A program made the position numbers and the translations under genes. Of a stretch of 40,146 nucleotides of DNA, positions 1-40,146 are shown piece by piece. Within the stretch, counting starts at the first letter, position 1, and each line of letters starts with the position of its first letter. A model generated the notes under the pieces. It worked only from the letters and a program-made list of their open reading frames with translations. It had not been told where the DNA came from and searched no databases. The DNA is from a virus: the IMG/VR virus record IMGVR_UViG_3300046804_001050, positions 1 through 40,146 of that record. One strand, 5' to 3'.

Positions 1-135
1 TCTATGTGGTTGTCACTGTTGTCATGCGATTTGAAACGCATAATGCCATTGTTGTCATTGTTGTCATGACAATTAAAAAGCATTTAGCAAAAAGCTTGCG
101 GTTGTTGTCATGTTGTCACGGTTGTCATGACAACA
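1..135. repeat. Forward cluster of TGTTGTCA repeats
   Basis: Perfect TGTTGTCA copies start at 17, 50, 59, 103 and 111, and GTTGTCA cores sit at 9-15 and 121-127. Two pairs are spaced 9 bp (50/59) and 8 bp (103/111). At 121-134 a forward and a reverse copy meet as the 14-bp palindrome GTTGTCATGACAAC. No convincing gene lies here: the frame that is open across it is only the repeat read as Val/Ile. The arrangement resembles iterons or an operator array; the binding protein is unknown. Confidence 0.8.
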
Positions 136-213
136 AAAATCCATTTTCAGTCACGTATACCAATACTGTATGCCTATACAGTATTATATTTTTCTATATA
201 TCTAATAAACTAA
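136..213. other. AT-rich core between opposed repeat clusters
   Basis: This stretch is strongly AT-rich (notably 183-212) and lies between the mainly forward repeats on its left and the reverse repeats on its right. It contains the LexA-like box. An AT-rich core flanked by inverted iteron clusters is a common origin layout, so a DNA unwinding element is a reasonable guess; this is inference only. Confidence 0.4.
164..183. promoter_or_regulatory. LexA-type SOS box
   Basis: TACTGTATGCCTATACAGTA is a perfect 8-bp inverted repeat around 4 bp. It satisfies the CTGT-N8-ACAG rule for LexA boxes of beta- and gammaproteobacteria. It lies upstream of the early + strand genes inside the control region. 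The role could be host LexA repression or a phage regulator of the same specificity. Confidence 0.6.
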
Positions 214-316
214 TGACAACATTGACAACAAACAGCAAAAAGCTAGTATTTTCGGGCATTTCGCGCCATGCAAAAATGACAACATCTCGACAACATTAAG
301 ACAACACATGACAACG
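214..316. repeat. Reverse cluster of TGACAACA repeats
   Basis: Perfect TGACAACA copies start at 214, 223 (9-bp spacing) and 277. Seven-of-eight matches start at 288, 299 and 309. Their orientation is opposite to that of the cluster at 1-127. From 317 to 416 I see no gene; a weak TTGACG at about 343 could be a -35 for the early genes, without a convincing -10. Confidence 0.75.
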
Positions 317-416
317 CCAGTCTTAACACTTCTTTGCACACTCTTGACGTTCCTTAACAATCAGCTTGCTACTATCTCTCTCACGCAATAACGCTTTTTC
401 AACCTGGATAAATGAC

Positions 417-4416: not shown

Positions 4417-6720
4417 TCATTTCCTAAGCGGTATCACATTACCCACCACAGGCGCGGGTTCGCACATGCGGCGCAATTCTGACTTTGCTGTGTATTCAAA
4501 CTCAGGTGCACAGAACACATGCCGCTTGTTTGGATACTCACGCGACGCAATGCGCCCTAAATCTACCCAGCCCGCCTCGCGTAGCGCGTGCAATAGCGCG
4601 GCCTGCGGCACTTTGACCCCTGCCGGAACATAACCAACCAATGATTCGCAAATGGCATGGAACGGTGCGCCGATCACACCCTTGGCGAACACGCCCTCAC
4701 GGCGCTGCATCAAGTCCACAAGGTAAGATTCGGCGGTAGACATGCCGAGGCCAATCAATACCTGCTTCGCTTCTGTCATCGGTGGGCACATGCCCGCGTT
4801 AAAGTTTGAAACGTCGCGGGCGTACAGGTAAGCGCACACGGCAGACTTGCCGCCGGACTCATACCAGCGCCACAAGGCGCGACTCTGTTCTTCTGGCATA
4901 CGCTCTGCATCAGACCAAACGACAAACCAGCGCCGATCATCTGAGGGCAAGCTGATCGCGGCACGCTCGTTTGAGTACGCTAAAACAAACAAGCGATTAA
5001 GCGCGTAGTAAGGCGCAAGCCCTTTGCGGTTGACGGATAGCAACTCAGGCGGGGCGGCGATTAGGGGCTTGAGATTGTTCTCTAACGCTCTGCGGTCTTT
5101 CGCTTCTGCCTGTCGCAGTTCGTTAATGAGCATGACCTCAGCTTCAAGCGCATAGCCCCACGCGCTGTTGAGTTCTTCATTGCGCACGATGGAGACGTTC
5201 ACGAGCTTATCGCCGCCGATGCCCCACAGGAACGGGGCGTAGAGCGAGTCCTTACCAGAACCGGCGCGGCCTGCGTGCAAAATGGCGTGATTGATCTTGA
5301 CGTTCGGGTGCTGCAACTTATAGGCGAGAACGTCCAGCACATGTTCACGCTCGAATTCCTCTGGGATCATGCGCTCAAGGTGATCAAGCCAAGGCTTGAC
5401 ATCGCCCGCCATAACTTCTGGGCGTGCATCTTTCCACCTATTGCCATACGGCAGACCATCGCGTGCCACTTGTACGTCCTCGCCTGCGGCGTAGGTCACG
5501 CCGATCAAACAGCGTGCGCCCATTTGCTGCCTGTTCTCATCAAAACAGACAGACGCCTCGACGCGGCGCTTGCCATCGTGAATAGACTTGCAGGGAATAT
5601 GCCGGAACAATGCGTTGAACGTGCTGCGGGCGATCTCGCGACGTTCTGAGAGGTCAAAATAAGCGTCGTCGTCTTGCAGATAGGCAAAACGCTCGTACCA
5701 GCTCGCCTTCTCGATCCGTCCCAGCTCTTTGCGTTCTACTTCTTCGATCACTGCGGCGGCTTGGTCTGGGAACATGTCAGTTGGCTTCAATTTCGATAGG
5801 GTGTCGGTCATTGTGGCAGCCAGTAGGTCATCTCGCAAGCCCGTTTGGACGGGCGGTGCGCCGTTCTCTGCCGTCCACGCTAAAAAGCGTGCGCTGTTCA
5901 AATCGCCGCAATGCTCATGGAAACATGAGAACGAGCGCGTAACAGGGTGGTAGCGTGCCTCTGGATTGCCGTCACTGTGCTCGTCCTTGTTTGGGCACGC
6001 GACGCTGTACCAGCCCTCTGGGTTGCGGCCTGACAGCACTAAGCCCTGAGTATTCAGCCAGCCCAAGATCGCGTCCTGTCCGTCGTCCTTCAGCCGTATG
6101 GCCTGAATCTGTGCGGTGTCGGCTTCTTCTGGCACAACGCCCAGCGCCTCGCAAATCTGGCGCAGGCTGAACTCGCGCTCAGGATGGAACTCGACCAATT
6201 TAGAGGCGAAGCCGCCCTTGCCTTCTTTTAGGTTGACACTTCCAGGAATTCGGAAGTTGCGCACGGCATTGATCGCGCCGCCATCGGTGTAGCCTGCGTT
6301 CGCTATGGCCTTAATCGCTGCGCTAAACTCGCCCGTCGTGGGCTGATCGTCTAGTCCGAAGGTATAGCCCCACTGATAGTTATCCGTAGAGGTTTCGATT
6401 TTCCACGTAGGCTCAAGCGGTGGCACTTTGGACTTCGTGCCTACATCATCGAGCACCATGACAAGCACGTGCGTGCAGTTTGCGCTCGAAGCTGACAGCT
6501 TGCCATCTTTGAAGCGGTCAAGAATAAAGCTGCCCGTGTTGCCGTACCAAGCGCCCTTGCCTGTATACTCAGACGGCAGGAACGGAGGCCAAGTGTACTT
6601 CGGCGAGCCGTCGCCGTGATACTGTTGTTCACCATTGACAAGTTTAGGCTTTTGCTTTACAAAGAGAGCTGTCTCTCCTTCCGGCGCAAGTTTGGTGAGG
6701 TAGTCGACAAAATTGTTCAT
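4417..6720 (-). CDS. AEP-type primase fused to SF3-like helicase
   Basis: 767 residues. The N-terminal part resembles phage RepB/AEP-type primases: hydrophobic strand then acidic pair LVMVLDDVG (about 86-94), and 'FRIPGSVNLK' (156-165). A zinc-binding-like segment follows (C242, C266, H268/H270, C271). The C-terminal half is a DUF5906/SF3-type ATPase: Walker A GRAGSGKDS (484-492), Walker B EVMLINEL (528-535), and an arginine-rich sensor region near 'SLPSDDRRWFVVW'. It should unwind the fork and lay down primers for the family A polymerase upstream. Start ATG is preceded by AGGAGCAATGAGTC. Last gene of the leftward replication operon. Confidence 0.85.
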   Translation of the reverse strand: MNNFVDYLTKLAPEGETALFVKQKPKLVNGEQQYHGDGSPKYTWPPFLPSEYTGKGAWYGNTGSFILDRFKDGKLSASSANCTHVLVMVLDDVGTKSKVPPLEPTWKIETSTDNYQWGYTFGLDDQPTTGEFSAAIKAIANAGYTDGGAINAVRNFRIPGSVNLKEGKGGFASKLVEFHPEREFSLRQICEALGVVPEEADTAQIQAIRLKDDGQDAILGWLNTQGLVLSGRNPEGWYSVACPNKDEHSDGNPEARYHPVTRSFSCFHEHCGDLNSARFLAWTAENGAPPVQTGLRDDLLAATMTDTLSKLKPTDMFPDQAAAVIEEVERKELGRIEKASWYERFAYLQDDDAYFDLSERREIARSTFNALFRHIPCKSIHDGKRRVEASVCFDENRQQMGARCLIGVTYAAGEDVQVARDGLPYGNRWKDARPEVMAGDVKPWLDHLERMIPEEFEREHVLDVLAYKLQHPNVKINHAILHAGRAGSGKDSLYAPFLWGIGGDKLVNVSIVRNEELNSAWGYALEAEVMLINELRQAEAKDRRALENNLKPLIAAPPELLSVNRKGLAPYYALNRLFVLAYSNERAAISLPSDDRRWFVVWSDAERMPEEQSRALWRWYESGGKSAVCAYLYARDVSNFNAGMCPPMTEAKQVLIGLGMSTAESYLVDLMQRREGVFAKGVIGAPFHAICESLVGYVPAGVKVPQAALLHALREAGWVDLGRIASREYPNKRHVFCAPEFEYTAKSELRRMCEPAPVVGNVIPLRK

Positions 6721-13078: not shown

Positions 13079-13305
13079 ATTGGGCAGAAGATAACGGTAT
13101 AGATATTGGTGATGCAGATGACTTTGATCAAGATGTTGAGTATCAAGTCGAGCATCTTTGGCAAACAAAAGATGGCAGAACGATCAAGATTTCTGAGATG
13201 ACAAACCAGCATCTATACAACGCATACAAATTGAAAGGCGCTCAAAGTTTGCAACATGAAATGATATTGCGGTTGTTTAAGAAAGCCTTTGAGGATGTGA
13301 AATGA
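13075..13305 (+). CDS. Conserved small phage protein, unknown
   Basis: 76 residues, acidic at the N-terminus (DNGIDIGDADDFDQD), then 'WQTKDGRTIKISEMTNQHLYNAYKL', a pattern found in small phage proteins near recombination genes. No known function. It overlaps the stop of the HNH/AP2 gene by 4 nt (ATGA) and shares its AT-rich base use. Confidence 0.65.
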   Translation: MNWAEDNGIDIGDADDFDQDVEYQVEHLWQTKDGRTIKISEMTNQHLYNAYKLKGAQSLQHEMILRLFKKAFEDVK

Positions 13306-13341: not shown

Positions 13342-13527
13342 ATGAATTGGCGTGAGATGAACAAATACTTGATGCAGTTGTCAGAACAAGAACTGCTTAA
13401 TATGCTTAATGAAGAACGCAACGGCGCTCGCCGTGAATCAGCACTGGTACGTATACATCAGCGGTATAGTGCGCTGCGTACTATCCGTGAACGTGAGGAA
13501 ATACTGGCAGAGGCTCGAATCGTATGA
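13342..13527 (+). CDS. Small helical protein, unknown
   Basis: 61 residues, highly charged, fully helical (QELLNMLNEERNGARRESAL...TIREREEILAEAR). The sequence around its start (TGAAATGAATTGG) repeats that around the start of the gene at 13075. Its stop overlaps the next start (ATGA). Function unknown. Confidence 0.6.
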   Translation: MNWREMNKYLMQLSEQELLNMLNEERNGARRESALVRIHQRYSALRTIREREEILAEARIV

Positions 13528-32983: not shown

Positions 32984-34738
32984 TTAAAACGGTTCGCCGT
33001 AAGTTGGATCAATTTTACGCAATGTAATTGATCTAATAATTACAGTATATGGCCCAGCCCCTAATGTGCCAGACTGAACGCCAACTTGAGCATACAACTG
33101 AGCATAATTACTAGCTGGAGTAATGCTATATGTTCTTGAAGTAACAATAGGCGTTGCTACTGTGCCTTCAAAAGCAATATCCGTAGTGGCATACGCCGTT
33201 ACAGCCGCATAGTCAGTTGAGGCTTGGTTAGCAAAACAGCTAAAGTTTTGAACGCTTGAAGTTGATGCTGGATATTCAATTTTTTCTGCTAAAACAATAG
33301 CAGGCATTTGATATACAGGGTTACCAGATATAGTTACGCCGGATGACGGTATGCTGACTTCCATTTCAGCTTGAAGTGAATCGCCAGCACTATAAGTATT
33401 AGCAGCAGTTGTAATTGTACCGTTAGCATTATTTACATAAATATAAACTGTTTTTGGCCCTGTACCTGCGCCAAACTTTAGAACAAGTTCAAAGCCAGGT
33501 AACAAAGTACCGTCAGGACCAGTAGCCGTACTTGCCTGTACACCAGCAGTCACGGCAGATGTACCTGCGCCGATGGCTTTTACATATACGCTGTCAAATA
33601 AAACAGCCGTGGTTGTTAACGCAGTGTCAGCTATAGCTTGCGTAAAAATACCGCCAGGAACTGAAGATACGCCAGTGTTTATCACAGGAACAATGCTTCC
33701 AGTGACATTATAAGTAGCGTCTATGGCATCCGCAGCAGTTAATGCTGGAGAACCGTTAGGAGGCAAAATTTTGCTTAAAACAGCATTGATAGCCGTTCCG
33801 TCTTTTTTACCGCCAAAACCACCTACGTGAACAAAGTCTTTGTAAATTCTTGCCAAGTTGCCACCGACGGCGGCATTGGTGCTATTTACATCGCGGCTTA
33901 ATGAATTACTGTCAACATATACCGCACCAACTTGACGGCAATAGTTTTGCAGCCATTTGTTGTATTGTTTTGTCTTTTTGTTGACTTGCAAATTAGTAAT
34001 TGCATAAGAAGCTGATGCTTGTACTGGTCTAATTGCCATCATTACAGGAATAATTCCCGCAGATAACAATCTAGTCATAGACGCCGTAACAACTGATTGC
34101 AGGTTAGCCAATGAGTATGTTGCTGTTGTTTGAGTCATATCATTGATGCCTAGATCAATGTATACATACTGAGGCGCAGGATTTTTTGCAATCATTTGCG
34201 TTACATACGTTGCTAATCCTGGGTCATCGTTACCACCAATAATAGTGCCGCCAGAATAAGCGTATATATAGCTTGCAGGTACGCAAAATGCGCGTTTAGA
34301 TAGAATCATTCCCCAAACAATACCGCCTGATCCAAGGTATCCTGCACCTGCGCCTGACGATCCTTGATAATAAGCGTAAGCAGTAGCAACTGGTACGTTA
34401 AAAGTTGCCACTGCTGCTGTACCCACAGCCGCAGGGTTGTTGTAAGTATATGTTGCGTAATTAGTGCCGCCTGGCTGACTTAAAGCGGTGACTCGCCAAA
34501 TGCCATCATAAGGTGAGCCAAGTCCATTAATTCGTATGGTATCGCCTACTGCTGCGCTAAAAGATAATTGAGTTTTTACAGTAATATTGCCTAAAGCATC
34601 ATCAATACTGGCGGTAATAATCTGGTACTTAAATAAAGTATTTGTGCCAAAGCTATGCGCAATAACTCCCATAATAGGAACTGTTTGCGTTGCCGCATTA
34701 CTATATTTATTTACACCGTTATTAAAAAATTCCATCAT
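32984..34738 (-). CDS. SGNH/GDSL-hydrolase-like tail protein
   Basis: 584 residues. Block I 'MGVIAHSFG' with S29, a glycine block in 'YSGGTIIGG' (about 161-169), block III 'YIDLGINDM' with N199, and block V 'DFVHVGG' with D301 and H304 (DxxH). This is the SGNH set in the right order, though block I has AHS in place of GDS and a beta insertion (35-130) splits the fold. The last 230 residues are beta-rich. Probably a virion esterase that deacetylates surface glycan. Two adjacent ATGs follow GGGAGAGG; spacing favours the second (34735). Confidence 0.75.
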   Translation of the reverse strand: MMEFFNNGVNKYSNAATQTVPIMGVIAHSFGTNTLFKYQIITASIDDALGNITVKTQLSFSAAVGDTIRINGLGSPYDGIWRVTALSQPGGTNYATYTYNNPAAVGTAAVATFNVPVATAYAYYQGSSGAGAGYLGSGGIVWGMILSKRAFCVPASYIYAYSGGTIIGGNDDPGLATYVTQMIAKNPAPQYVYIDLGINDMTQTTATYSLANLQSVVTASMTRLLSAGIIPVMMAIRPVQASASYAITNLQVNKKTKQYNKWLQNYCRQVGAVYVDSNSLSRDVNSTNAAVGGNLARIYKDFVHVGGFGGKKDGTAINAVLSKILPPNGSPALTAADAIDATYNVTGSIVPVINTGVSSVPGGIFTQAIADTALTTTAVLFDSVYVKAIGAGTSAVTAGVQASTATGPDGTLLPGFELVLKFGAGTGPKTVYIYVNNANGTITTAANTYSAGDSLQAEMEVSIPSSGVTISGNPVYQMPAIVLAEKIEYPASTSSVQNFSCFANQASTDYAAVTAYATTDIAFEGTVATPIVTSRTYSITPASNYAQLYAQVGVQSGTLGAGPYTVIIRSITLRKIDPTYGEPF

Positions 34739-37318: not shown

Positions 37319-37455
37319 TATTTCTTCTTGTGTGAGGCCGCACGTTTAGTAGAATACGCAATAGCAACGGCCTGCTTCACAGGCTTGCCCGCCTTGACTT
37401 CAGCAGCGACGTTCTTGCGGAAAGCAGCTTTGCTTGTTGACTTGACTAAAGGCAT
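37318..37455 (-). CDS. Small basic conserved phage protein
   Basis: 45 residues: 'PLVKSTSKAAFRKNVAAEVK' and 'GKPVKQAVAIAYSTKRAA' then KKK. This 'GK..KQAVAIAYS' pattern is a common tiny phage protein, mostly located near terminase and portal genes. Joined on both sides by TAATG overlaps with TerL and portal. Function unknown. Confidence 0.75.
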   Translation of the reverse strand: MPLVKSTSKAAFRKNVAAEVKAGKPVKQAVAIAYSTKRAASHKKK

Positions 37456-38984
37456 TACGACCCCATCCAACTACTTGATACACCGCCGCCGCCCATCTGA
37501 GCCACTCGGCGCACTGGTTTCTCAACATACGTCCTGCTTGCTACAGGATACGCAAATGTCACTGCAAGCGCGTCGGCGGCATCGGGTGATGCTAAGCCAC
37601 GCGCTTTCATATCTTTCTTGGACTCTAATTGAATCACGCCCGAAGATGTAGGCTTACTTTTTACACCTGTCAAGTCGCTTTTTAACATCTTGTCTGCTGG
37701 GACGCAAGCAGTTTTTAACCACTCTCTCATAGCGCCCCAAAGTTCTGCGCGTTTGTTGAGCCACATAATAGGGTTCTTAGACTTCCATCCGAAGTTCACG
37801 CCTCTCACCTTGTACCGTTGTTCATTTAGTCGGTCTAAGATGCCGTAACCTAATCCACCTTCGTCCATCACTACCAATGTCGGCTTATACTCCTCAATCG
37901 CTTCAATGATGTGCCCGACGGTCGTCATCGTATCGTCGCCGCGGTATCGCTTGATCGCAACCAAGTCACGCCCTTGCCGAACTACAATCACCGTCGAGTC
38001 CATACCGCTACGCGCTGGGTCAACGCCAATGACTATCGGCGCAGACGTATCCTTATAAGGCTGCCGCTTGATGGCCTCATCAACCATAGCAGCGCCGATG
38101 AACTGATCGTCACCGACTGATGGGAACTCGCCATAGACTTCGACTTTAGCTTGAGGCGAGTCAGCGCCATATTCTGAAATAATTTGCTCATAGACGTTCT
38201 TGTCGGTGTCTTCCACAGTCCGTGAGTCAATATTGCGTGACTCCCAAAAGTCCCGCTTCGAATGAAACGCTTCATAAAAATACCCCTGGTTACGACGTGG
38301 GTTACTGAACGCGAACCAATAACGATCCAAGATGTTCTCAGTAAAGAAACCCGCGCCCACTGACCAGATCGGGTCAGGTATACCCGACGCTTCGTCAAAT
38401 ATCAGCATCATGCCCGCATGGTTGTGCACACCAGCGTACGAGTCAGGGTTCTCCTCACTCCACAGCTTCCCTTCCGCCGCCCAGTAGCGCGTACCTAATT
38501 TAAGGTCACGCTCTACCAGTTCTGTCACCCATTTAGCCGGTACGACCTTCGTCGCCGAGATCTCCCACCAGTGATTGTTGATGAGCATCGCACACCATTT
38601 AGTGAGTTCACCCCATGTCACCGAGCGTAGCTGCGCTTCGCTGTTTGCACTGACCACGACGCTCGATCCGATGCGGGTAGTTAGCATCCACAAGATCAGC
38701 CAACTGACCAGCGCCGACTTACCGATACCGCGACCTGACGCCACCGCCACGCGCAGTGTGTTCATGTCCAGCTTGCCTTGGTTGTCCTTTATATGCTGCT
38801 TGATCGTGCGCATCACCTCGCGCTGCCATTTACGTGGCCCGTTGAACTTAGCCAACGGCGTGTTCTGTTGACCCCACGGAAAGACGTACAGCACGAAAGC
38901 TTCTGGGTCGTCCTTTAGCGCAGGCGACCACAGTTGGGCCATGAGCGTCTGTTCTTCACTGGCACTATATATAGGTGTTTGCAT
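37455..38984 (-). CDS. Terminase large subunit, P22 gp2-like
   Basis: 509 residues. ATPase: Walker A ASGRGIGKS (82-90), Walker B MLIFDEAS (193-200). RNase H-like nuclease: D322 in 'VIGVDPARSG', D374 in 'LVVMDEGGLGYG', D471 in 'SPDAADALAVTFA'. Full length. It pumps DNA into the head and cuts the concatemer; similarity to P22 gp2 suggests headful packaging, in line with a circularly permuted genome. Confidence 0.93.
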   Translation of the reverse strand: MQTPIYSASEEQTLMAQLWSPALKDDPEAFVLYVFPWGQQNTPLAKFNGPRKWQREVMRTIKQHIKDNQGKLDMNTLRVAVASGRGIGKSALVSWLILWMLTTRIGSSVVVSANSEAQLRSVTWGELTKWCAMLINNHWWEISATKVVPAKWVTELVERDLKLGTRYWAAEGKLWSEENPDSYAGVHNHAGMMLIFDEASGIPDPIWSVGAGFFTENILDRYWFAFSNPRRNQGYFYEAFHSKRDFWESRNIDSRTVEDTDKNVYEQIISEYGADSPQAKVEVYGEFPSVGDDQFIGAAMVDEAIKRQPYKDTSAPIVIGVDPARSGMDSTVIVVRQGRDLVAIKRYRGDDTMTTVGHIIEAIEEYKPTLVVMDEGGLGYGILDRLNEQRYKVRGVNFGWKSKNPIMWLNKRAELWGAMREWLKTACVPADKMLKSDLTGVKSKPTSSGVIQLESKKDMKARGLASPDAADALAVTFAYPVASRTYVEKPVRRVAQMGGGGVSSSWMGS

Positions 38985-39446
38985 TTAAGGCATAACCAAT
39001 ATGTTGTTAGGCTCTACTCGTGAAAAATACGCTTTAAGGTCTTCTGGACTCCACATTGGCTCACGTACCTTAGATACGCCAGGCGTAAACGCCCATTGGC
39101 CGTTAGCCAGCTTAGACCACGATCCGCCAACGTGTCCTTCTACGCCGCTGTATTTACTTTGGTCAGAAAACGTAGGGTGGTTAGGCTTCTTAAACGCATC
39201 AGGAAAATGACCGTTCTCCGCCGGATTTAGCCCTGCCTTAAACGCGCCTTGTAAGTCATAATCACGGGCGTTGCGTTGATACTCAGGCAACGTCATCAGC
39301 CACTTCTGATATTCTTTCTTTTCCGCTGGTTTTAACGGCGTGTTGTACTTGTCGCTAAAGTCCATCGGATCGACCATTGTTGGCGGCTGGGCGAAGCTCG
39401 CCAACGCATTATATACAGGTGGCGCTAGTGCATTGTTTGCCATCAT
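38985..39446 (-). CDS. Conserved protein next to terminase, unknown
   Basis: 153 residues. 'YDLQGAFKAGLNPAENGHFPDAFKKPNHPTFSDQSKYSG...GGSW' is a conserved pattern in proteins encoded beside the terminase in many podo- and siphophages; a structural or packaging role is assumed but not known. Start overlaps the stop of the small subunit (TAATG); a second ATG follows immediately. Confidence 0.7.
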   Translation of the reverse strand: MMANNALAPPVYNALASFAQPPTMVDPMDFSDKYNTPLKPAEKKEYQKWLMTLPEYQRNARDYDLQGAFKAGLNPAENGHFPDAFKKPNHPTFSDQSKYSGVEGHVGGSWSKLANGQWAFTPGVSKVREPMWSPEDLKAYFSRVEPNNILVMP

Positions 39447-39907
39447 TAACCTTTCAATAGTGGGTTGGCCGGTTCAGCGTCGATGGTCAGGCCCGTGCTG
39501 ACACGTTCCTGGGCCATACGCAGGGCCTCGGTGATACTGATCTTGTGCGTGACGTCCACGCTGACTTCTTGCTTCGGTGTCCAGTCGTGCCGGTGGTTGA
39601 GGATCGCCAGCGCCGCTTTATAGTCGCCGCCCAACGCCGCGTCGGTGACAACCTTAGCCATCTCCGCCTCAGCGTCCGCTTTGCCTTTCAGCGCAGCGAG
39701 TTCAGCCAATGGGTCAAACTGACACAGTTGTCGATACTCGGTGGGCAGCATCCCCGCAGCCAAGGCCAGCGAGTCGCCCTTTAGCCCTTTGCGTGCGGCG
39801 TTATATATAGACTGCAACCGCGCTTCGGTGGCCTCGAGCTTGCGAACTGTCAACGGTAAAGATTGGAACATGCGGGCGTTTATACCAAAAGCATTGAGTT
39901 GGGGCAA
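39446..39907 (-). CDS. Terminase small subunit-like protein
   Basis: 153 residues from a TTG at 39907; the first ATG in frame is at 39871 and neither has a clear ribosome-binding site. Residues about 23-65 contain an HTH-like part ('LQSIYNAARKGLKGDSLALAAGMLPTEYRQLCQF'), followed by a charged helix 'LAALKGKADAEAEMAKVVTDAALGGDYKAALAILNHRHDW' as in phage TerS proteins (DNA recognition, then oligomerisation). It is the first gene of the late operon, next to the non-coding region where a pac site may lie. Confidence 0.7.
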   Translation of the reverse strand: MPQLNAFGINARMFQSLPLTVRKLEATEARLQSIYNAARKGLKGDSLALAAGMLPTEYRQLCQFDPLAELAALKGKADAEAEMAKVVTDAALGGDYKAALAILNHRHDWTPKQEVSVDVTHKISITEALRMAQERVSTGLTIDAEPANPLLKG

Positions 39908-40013: not shown

Positions 40014-40047
40014 CTGGATATCCGTACAGTACTGTACAAGCATCCAG
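40014..40047. promoter_or_regulatory. 34-bp palindromic structure
   Basis: CTGGAT (40014-40019), 4 nt, GTACAGTACTGTAC (40024-40037), 4 nt, ATCCAG (40042-40047). The outer arms pair, the inner 14 bp is a perfect palindrome and the internal loops are equal. The TACAGTA/TACTGTA halves also form the LexA-like box at 164-183. It could be an operator, a pac-related site or a cruciform. The rest of 39908-40086 has GC palindromes (CCCGGG, GGGCCC at 39998-40008) and no gene. Confidence 0.55.
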
Positions 40048-40086
40048 CCGCAAGCTAACAGCCACGCAGCTAGTAGCTGGCAAGCG

Positions 40087-40119
40087 TGTTGTCATTGTTG
40101 TCATTTTGCAATGACAACA
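40087..40119. repeat. TGTTGTCA repeats at the right end
   Basis: Perfect TGTTGTCA at 40087 and 40096 (9-bp spacing, as at 50/59) and TGACAACA at 40112. Same motif as in the left 316 bp, so the two window ends probably belong to one region of a circular map. Confidence 0.75.
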
Positions 40120-40146
40120 AATAGCCATGCGCCAAGTGCCATGTGC

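Follow-up and report, generated by a model that had tools for sequence, protein, structure and literature searches.

A paired, inverted repeat array as the probable replication origin of a family of podovirus-like phages, proposed to be read by the phage primase-helicase

We describe an array of paired 8-bp repeats that is kept at one place across a large phage family, while the 8-mer itself changes and tracks the wing of the C-terminal winged helix of the phage primase-helicase. Taken together, these sequence patterns make it highly probable that replication of the phage, which is podovirus-like and maps as a circle, starts at the array, and that its own primase-helicase reads the repeats. 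The window analysed is the whole of virus record IMGVR_UViG_3300046804_001050 (40,146 bases).

The repeat array of the window

The first 316 bases contain nine perfect copies of GTTGTCAT, five on the plus strand (18, 51, 60, 104 and 121) and four on the minus strand (127, 213, 276 and 308), and the right end contains three more (40088 and 40097, plus; 40111, minus), exactly as counted in the first-pass annotation. The last 60 and first 316 bases together (376 bp) thus hold 12 perfect copies, against a mean of 0.05 and a maximum of 2 in dinucleotide shuffles (n = 1000), and no 8-mer of any kind exceeded five copies in 1000 such shuffles of this segment. Elsewhere in the window the 8-mer occurs as single scattered copies only. 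A position weight matrix finds 17 sites in an array running from ∼40084 through 319, with the weaker sites at 5, 108, 221, 286 and 297. The sites are read as TGACAACA, and the site strands below are those of TGACAACA.

40084..40146, no strand: outer end of the left arm, joining base 1 on the circular map (perfect 8-mers at 40088, 40097 and 40111, and weight matrix); sites 40084-40096 (minus), 40093-40105 (minus) and 40110-40122 (plus)
1..138, no strand: left arm of the array (weight-matrix sites, shuffle enrichment; pairs 8–9 bp apart); sites 5-17, 14-26, 47-59, 56-68, 100-112, 108-120 and 117-129 (all minus) and 126-138 (plus)
139..211, no strand: AT-rich core between the arms, the presumed melting region (∼75% A+T; the gap between inverted arms recurs in relatives)
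164..183, no strand: LexA-like operator TACTGTATGCCTATACAGTA (CTGT-N8-ACAG) in the core (motif match)
212..319, no strand: right arm, reading outward from the core (perfect 8-mers and weight matrix); sites 212-224, 221-233, 275-287, 286-298, 297-309 and 307-319 (all plus)

The pairing of sites 8–9 bp apart that had been noted earlier is present at 40084/40093, 5/14, 47/56, 100/108/117 and 212/221, and so is the change of orientation around an AT-rich core, since positions 127-214 are 75% A+T against ∼60% in the flanks. Both arms point outward from the core with two exceptions. The mirror symmetry proposed for the array therefore holds in that the two arms are inverted, but it is imperfect, with the sites at 126-138 and 40110-40122 running against the orientation of their own arm.

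The left and right groups of repeats had been counted at the two ends. In the closest relative (L086/G001; terL 95% and primase 91% identical to the window), the early genes, the array and the terminase small subunit follow one another in unbroken sequence. Because this relative is contiguous across the window's two ends, the window is a circular map opened inside the array; the copies at both ends are real, but the two ends are one place on the circular map. The small-terminase-like gene is the first gene leftward of the array, and the array lies ∼4 kb from the primase gene, with early small genes between.

37455..38984, minus strand: terminase large subunit (PHROG terminase large subunit), the query used to find relatives
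39446..39907, minus strand: small-terminase-like protein, 153 aa (position before terL and homology in relatives)

The window also encodes portal, capsid and tail proteins, and carries a PolA-type polymerase gene separate from the primase-helicase. Megablast of the window against GenBank phages gave no match, and Rfam and tRNA searches of the window found none. We note several local features of this region. A 153-aa ORF at 38985-39446, between the small and large terminase genes, has no match in 20 relatives and is apparently an insertion of the window's lineage. Between the small terminase and the array there is an imperfect 17-bp inverted repeat (40014-40047) that includes the perfect palindrome GTACAGTACTGTAC at 40024-40037. 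L086 has a tRNA-Thr gene (anticodon TGT; 13186-13261) between array and small terminase that is absent from the window.

Arrays in related phages

Terminase and primase searches yielded several hundred relative loci. Where the sequence is usable, most of these have an array built in the same way between the terminase and divergent early genes, with another 8-mer. These 8-mers include TTGCTTAT (in G001), TTGCCCACA, TTGCCCAAA, TGACCCAAA, TGACCCACA and TGACCCATT, as well as TACCCCAC, TTGCCTAAA, TTGCCAACA, TTGTCCACA and GGGTACAA. Direct pairs of sites, spaced at 9 (8–10) bp, make up two arms whose main orientations are opposed and between which lies a gap of ∼85–130 bp. The first-pass annotation had looked to relatives for the motif at the same place, and had taken their lack of the repeats as the contrary outcome. 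Position and pairing of the array are kept but the 8-mer differs; the window's own 8-mer is indeed absent, but another one stands there, matched to the relative's own primase-helicase.

Some relatives have GC-rich tandem arrays, or no array was found. Head-to-tail GC-rich repeats with units of 6–8 bp and up to 25 copies are present in L006, L007, L008, L009, L071 and L138, close to the terminase or within the array region, and may represent an origin that is degenerating or expanding, or something else. Two phages, W01 (OR003940, phage DSL-LC05) and G015, are without the window-type primase. In W01 a CCCAGTGGGTCA-like repeat array occupies the same slot (∼33430-33960) beside an unrelated primase (Prim-Pol, PriCT_2, DUF3987), and because of this pairing the slot appears to be kept despite replacement of the initiator. 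Close relatives in bacterial genome assemblies (L290–L299) are found in metagenome-bin contigs only, several of them freshwater betaproteobacteria, and none in isolates.

The primase-helicase and its winged helix

The candidate initiator has a RepB-type/PrimPol N-terminal domain, a DUF5906/D5-like AAA+ helicase and a C-terminal winged helix; across primase members, Pfam finds DUF5906 in 31/31 and RepB_primase in 26/31.

4417..6720, minus strand: primase-helicase, 767 aa, proposed initiator (PHROG DNA primase; Pfam; fold matches)
4441..4698, minus strand: C-terminal winged helix, residues ∼675-760, proposed iteron reader (structure model and winged-helix matches)
4540..4542, minus strand: codon of the wing residue Arg727, which covaries with the base that follows the invariant A of the motif (...CA-A-C in TGACAACA)

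The full structure model matches the NrS-1 polymerase CTR (Z 23.5 over residues 339-739, 16–17% identity) and the SaPI5 primase-helicase (7ola; Z 17.7 over 304 residues), with further matches to poxvirus D5/E5, papillomavirus E1 and AAV Rep helicases, and its N-terminal part matches RepB' and the S-2L PrimPol. From these fold matches the protein is therefore predicted to be an initiator-type D5/SF3-like primase-helicase.

The C-terminal domain is modelled as strand-helix-helix-strand-wing-strand, with pLDDT of 85–93. Searched alone, it gave nothing relevant by sequence against the PDB, no Foldseek match at E≤0.001, and by VIA only generic winged helices, with Z up to 6.7. The P4 alpha structure 1KA8 is not among the matches listed for this domain, an absence that does not exclude homology.

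Covariation of the wing with the repeat

An association between arginine in the wing and motifs in ...AC was first seen by eye, before all primase columns were scanned. In the scan, 40 of 41 non-redundant relatives obey one rule: those with C directly after the invariant A of the motif have arginine at 727, and those with another base do not. Column 727 has a corrected MI of 0.66, against 0.30 for the next column, and the next-best accuracy is 31/41; over 500 label permutations the maximum accuracy across all primase columns was 0.85. Loci left out of the scan were those with no clean non-tandem array (G010, L125, L093, L134, L138, L128, L257 and L160), with an ambiguous motif alignment (W02 and L268) or with a split gene (G016), together with L265, which was set aside for a mixed base after being seen as a possible exception; it has Arg727 with mixed CAC/CAT sites. 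In the sole misfit, L048, the array is of TGACCCAT although the primase has Arg727. In this contig (∼5470-6172) the primase and flank are those of the TACCCCAC group and the array is that of the TGACCCATT group; on this sequence L048 is evidently a recombinant (mosaic) or an assembly chimera. For the other motif positions (-5 to -1, and +2), there is no primase column as prominent as 727 is for +1.

A phylogenetic tree from which the C-terminal domain had been omitted shows ten changes of the motif base and ten of residue 727. With the mosaic contig L048 excluded, base and residue agree in all eight of the independent pairs that have support (p = 0.008); with L048 included, they agree in seven of eight, the other pair being without a residue change (p = 0.016). 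Of ten hand-picked pairs, column 727 accounts for all ten, and 721 in the same domain comes second with 7/10; six of the seven columns that differ in at least nine of these pairs fall within 721-743. The primases of L246 and L248 are 97.2% identical over residues 1-640 and only 27% identical in the wing, and their motifs are TTGTCCACG and TGACCCAAA, respectively.

The rule was then applied to 75 later loci, labelled by a motif dictionary settled in advance of their retrieval, and 74 agree, in a set that is unbalanced (67 Arg/C and 7 non-Arg) and in which many loci are close to each other. Scan and later loci together cover more than a hundred related viruses. The single miss, L291, has the site TTGCTTACA, in which the base after GCTTA is C, as its Arg727 predicts; the miss is explained by the dictionary entry for GCTTA, which had been set to T from G001 with the next base unread. 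Covariation at column 727 and the L246/L248 swap, which are genetic evidence rather than evidence of binding, indicate that the C-terminal domain sets iteron specificity. The earlier statement that no recognisable origin-binding protein is encoded thus gives way, since the motif base tracks a wing residue of the phage's own primase-helicase.

LexA-like boxes in the array core

The box at 164-183 fits CTGT-N8-ACAG in a TACTGTATATATATACAGTA context, a consensus of the Gamma-/Betaproteobacteria type. Such boxes number 21 in 29.9 kb of array sequence and 7 in 302 kb outside it, a ∼30-fold enrichment, and are present inside the array in 20 of 52 loci (a set that includes some overlapping records), usually ∼28–37 bp from the early-side arm. 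G011 contains the exact E. coli LexA consensus. The form TACTGTAT...ACAG is seen between the arms in the window (164-183), in G002–G005, G011 and G016, and in L086, L088, L095, L102, L228, L231, L232, L237, L239, L253 and L267. An operator in the core of the window array and of many related ones suggests, more tentatively, that the SOS state may gate the early promoter, the origin or both. More generally, the occurrence of LexA-like boxes within array cores hints that phage replication control and the SOS response are connected in a way so far unrecognised.

Alternative readings of the array

It is unlikely that the array is instead a secondary initiator-binding region, such as a copy-control or enhancer element resembling P4 crr, with the true origin elsewhere. 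P4 does have two separate binding regions, and cumulative GC skew, with no V-shape and no origin signature, does not mark the array's place. However, GC-rich tandem repeats aside, no short repeat is more strongly clustered than the array in most of the genomes that were examined in full, and the array comprises two arms as well as an AT-rich core.

A quite improbable alternative is that the array is the operator of a repressor or regulator encoded in the small early genes and controls two divergent promoters. The array does lie between divergent transcription units, with a LexA-like box in its core and a promoter-like pair at 222-249, although promoter-like hits are near shuffle level. The first-pass annotation had likewise named an uncharacterised small protein, or a host protein, as ligand. 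Comparison with 20 mostly near-complete relatives speaks against this, as none of the window's early small genes is conserved where the array is kept and early small proteins were rejected as ligand, in contrast to the retained genes for primase-helicase, polymerase, small terminase, terL and structural proteins; the covariation, too, points to the primase-helicase. Repression by this same primase-helicase may occur as a side effect. A conserved 61-aa protein (13342-13527) was also rejected as ligand: G001, the closest relative, has an array, yet the protein was not detected there.

The sites could be template sequences at which the PrimPol starts primers, comparable to NrS-1 TTTGGTTA, and not double-strand iterons, which we regard as very improbable. 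The nearest solved structure is indeed that of the NrS-1 polymerase, whose priming takes place at a short recognition sequence (PMC8718748). There, however, recognition is ascribed to the HBD beside the N-terminal domain (PMC8718748), whereas here the covarying residue lies in the C-terminal wing, and paired, inverted arms fit double-strand binding better than primer-start templates.

Barely tenable is a role in packaging, with the small terminase recognising the array as a pac or cos site: a small-terminase-like gene adjoins the array in the window and in relatives, and there are headful-packaging phages among the relatives of the window terL, but small terminases that are 100% identical (L246/L248 and L050/L226) accompany different motifs, contrary to what a pac or cos site would lead one to expect, 210 pairs with small terminases at least 92% identical differ in the motif base, and, because of these identical proteins and because the best small-terminase column predicts that base at only 0.67 (0.97 for primase 727 at the same loci), the small terminase is ruled out as specificity factor.

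Discussion

The origin reading retains much of the cooperative binding by an initiator or repressor that was first proposed: paired, inverted arrays around an AT-rich core look like initiator sites and are kept in relatives, while the identity of the ligand has changed. Subunits of the primase-helicase would bind the sites of both arms as direct-repeat pairs. By analogy with SaPI and PICI Rep proteins, they would then assemble a helicase ring on each side of the AT-rich core, melt it and prime synthesis. Specificity would turn over through joint change or exchange of the array and the winged helix, above all its wing.

P4 alpha is a fusion of primase, helicase and origin-binding functions with a C-terminal winged helix and 8-bp repeats, and to this extent resembles the window's protein and array; it differs in that ori1 and crr lie apart as distinct regions and that its primase domain is of another kind. 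A close parallel is with SaPI and PICI elements (SaPI5 primase-helicase, PDB 7ola/7om0/7pds), with which the D5-like primase-helicase fold is shared. PICI origins consist of two iteron sets flanking an AT-rich region (PMC6092414), a two-arm layout also seen in the window (40084-138 and 212-319 around the 75% AT core) and in its relatives, and SaPI Rep reads its iterons with the C-terminal domain (PMC7581432), as proposed here. In contrast, the PICI ori is directly 3' of the initiator gene, whereas that of the window would be ∼4 kb away, between the terminase and the early genes; these satellites are without structural genes of their own, whereas the window is a phage with structural genes and its own DNA polymerase; and the core of the window array has a LexA-like box. 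From its sequence the window array appears to work like a PICI origin but is no PICI, and compared with SaPI/PICI the motif family and the wing code are new here.

The NrS-1 phage polymerase (PDB 6k9c, 6lrb) is the closest solved relative of residues 339-739, but it is reported to have two 8-nt priming sites in its genome and not an iteron array (PMC7102993), whereas the window has an iteron array and a separate PolA-type polymerase. In PLE RepA of Vibrio satellites, initiator and iterons likewise covary and are exchanged as a module (PMC8263062), although RepA is of the RepA_N family, has ∼30-bp semi-palindromic iterons and is unrelated to the window protein.

We also consider, as a tentative idea that is possible but rather doubtful, that origin and initiator form a rapidly diversifying self-recognition pair, in which single wing residues (Arg727 to a C:G pair) and exchange of the winged helix switch the iteron code and a LexA operator couples firing to SOS. 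If so, close relatives would replicate without cross-recognition by co-infecting relatives or satellites, and the operator in the melting core would couple firing of the origin or early promoter to the SOS state of the host.

The analysis provides a computed origin and names a candidate initiator for podovirus-like phages that form a large group, uncultured and mainly from freshwater. Its dozens of matched initiator-iteron pairs are a natural data set for a specificity code of one residue to one base, with which the evolution of initiator specificity would become directly testable and origins would be predictable from primase sequence.
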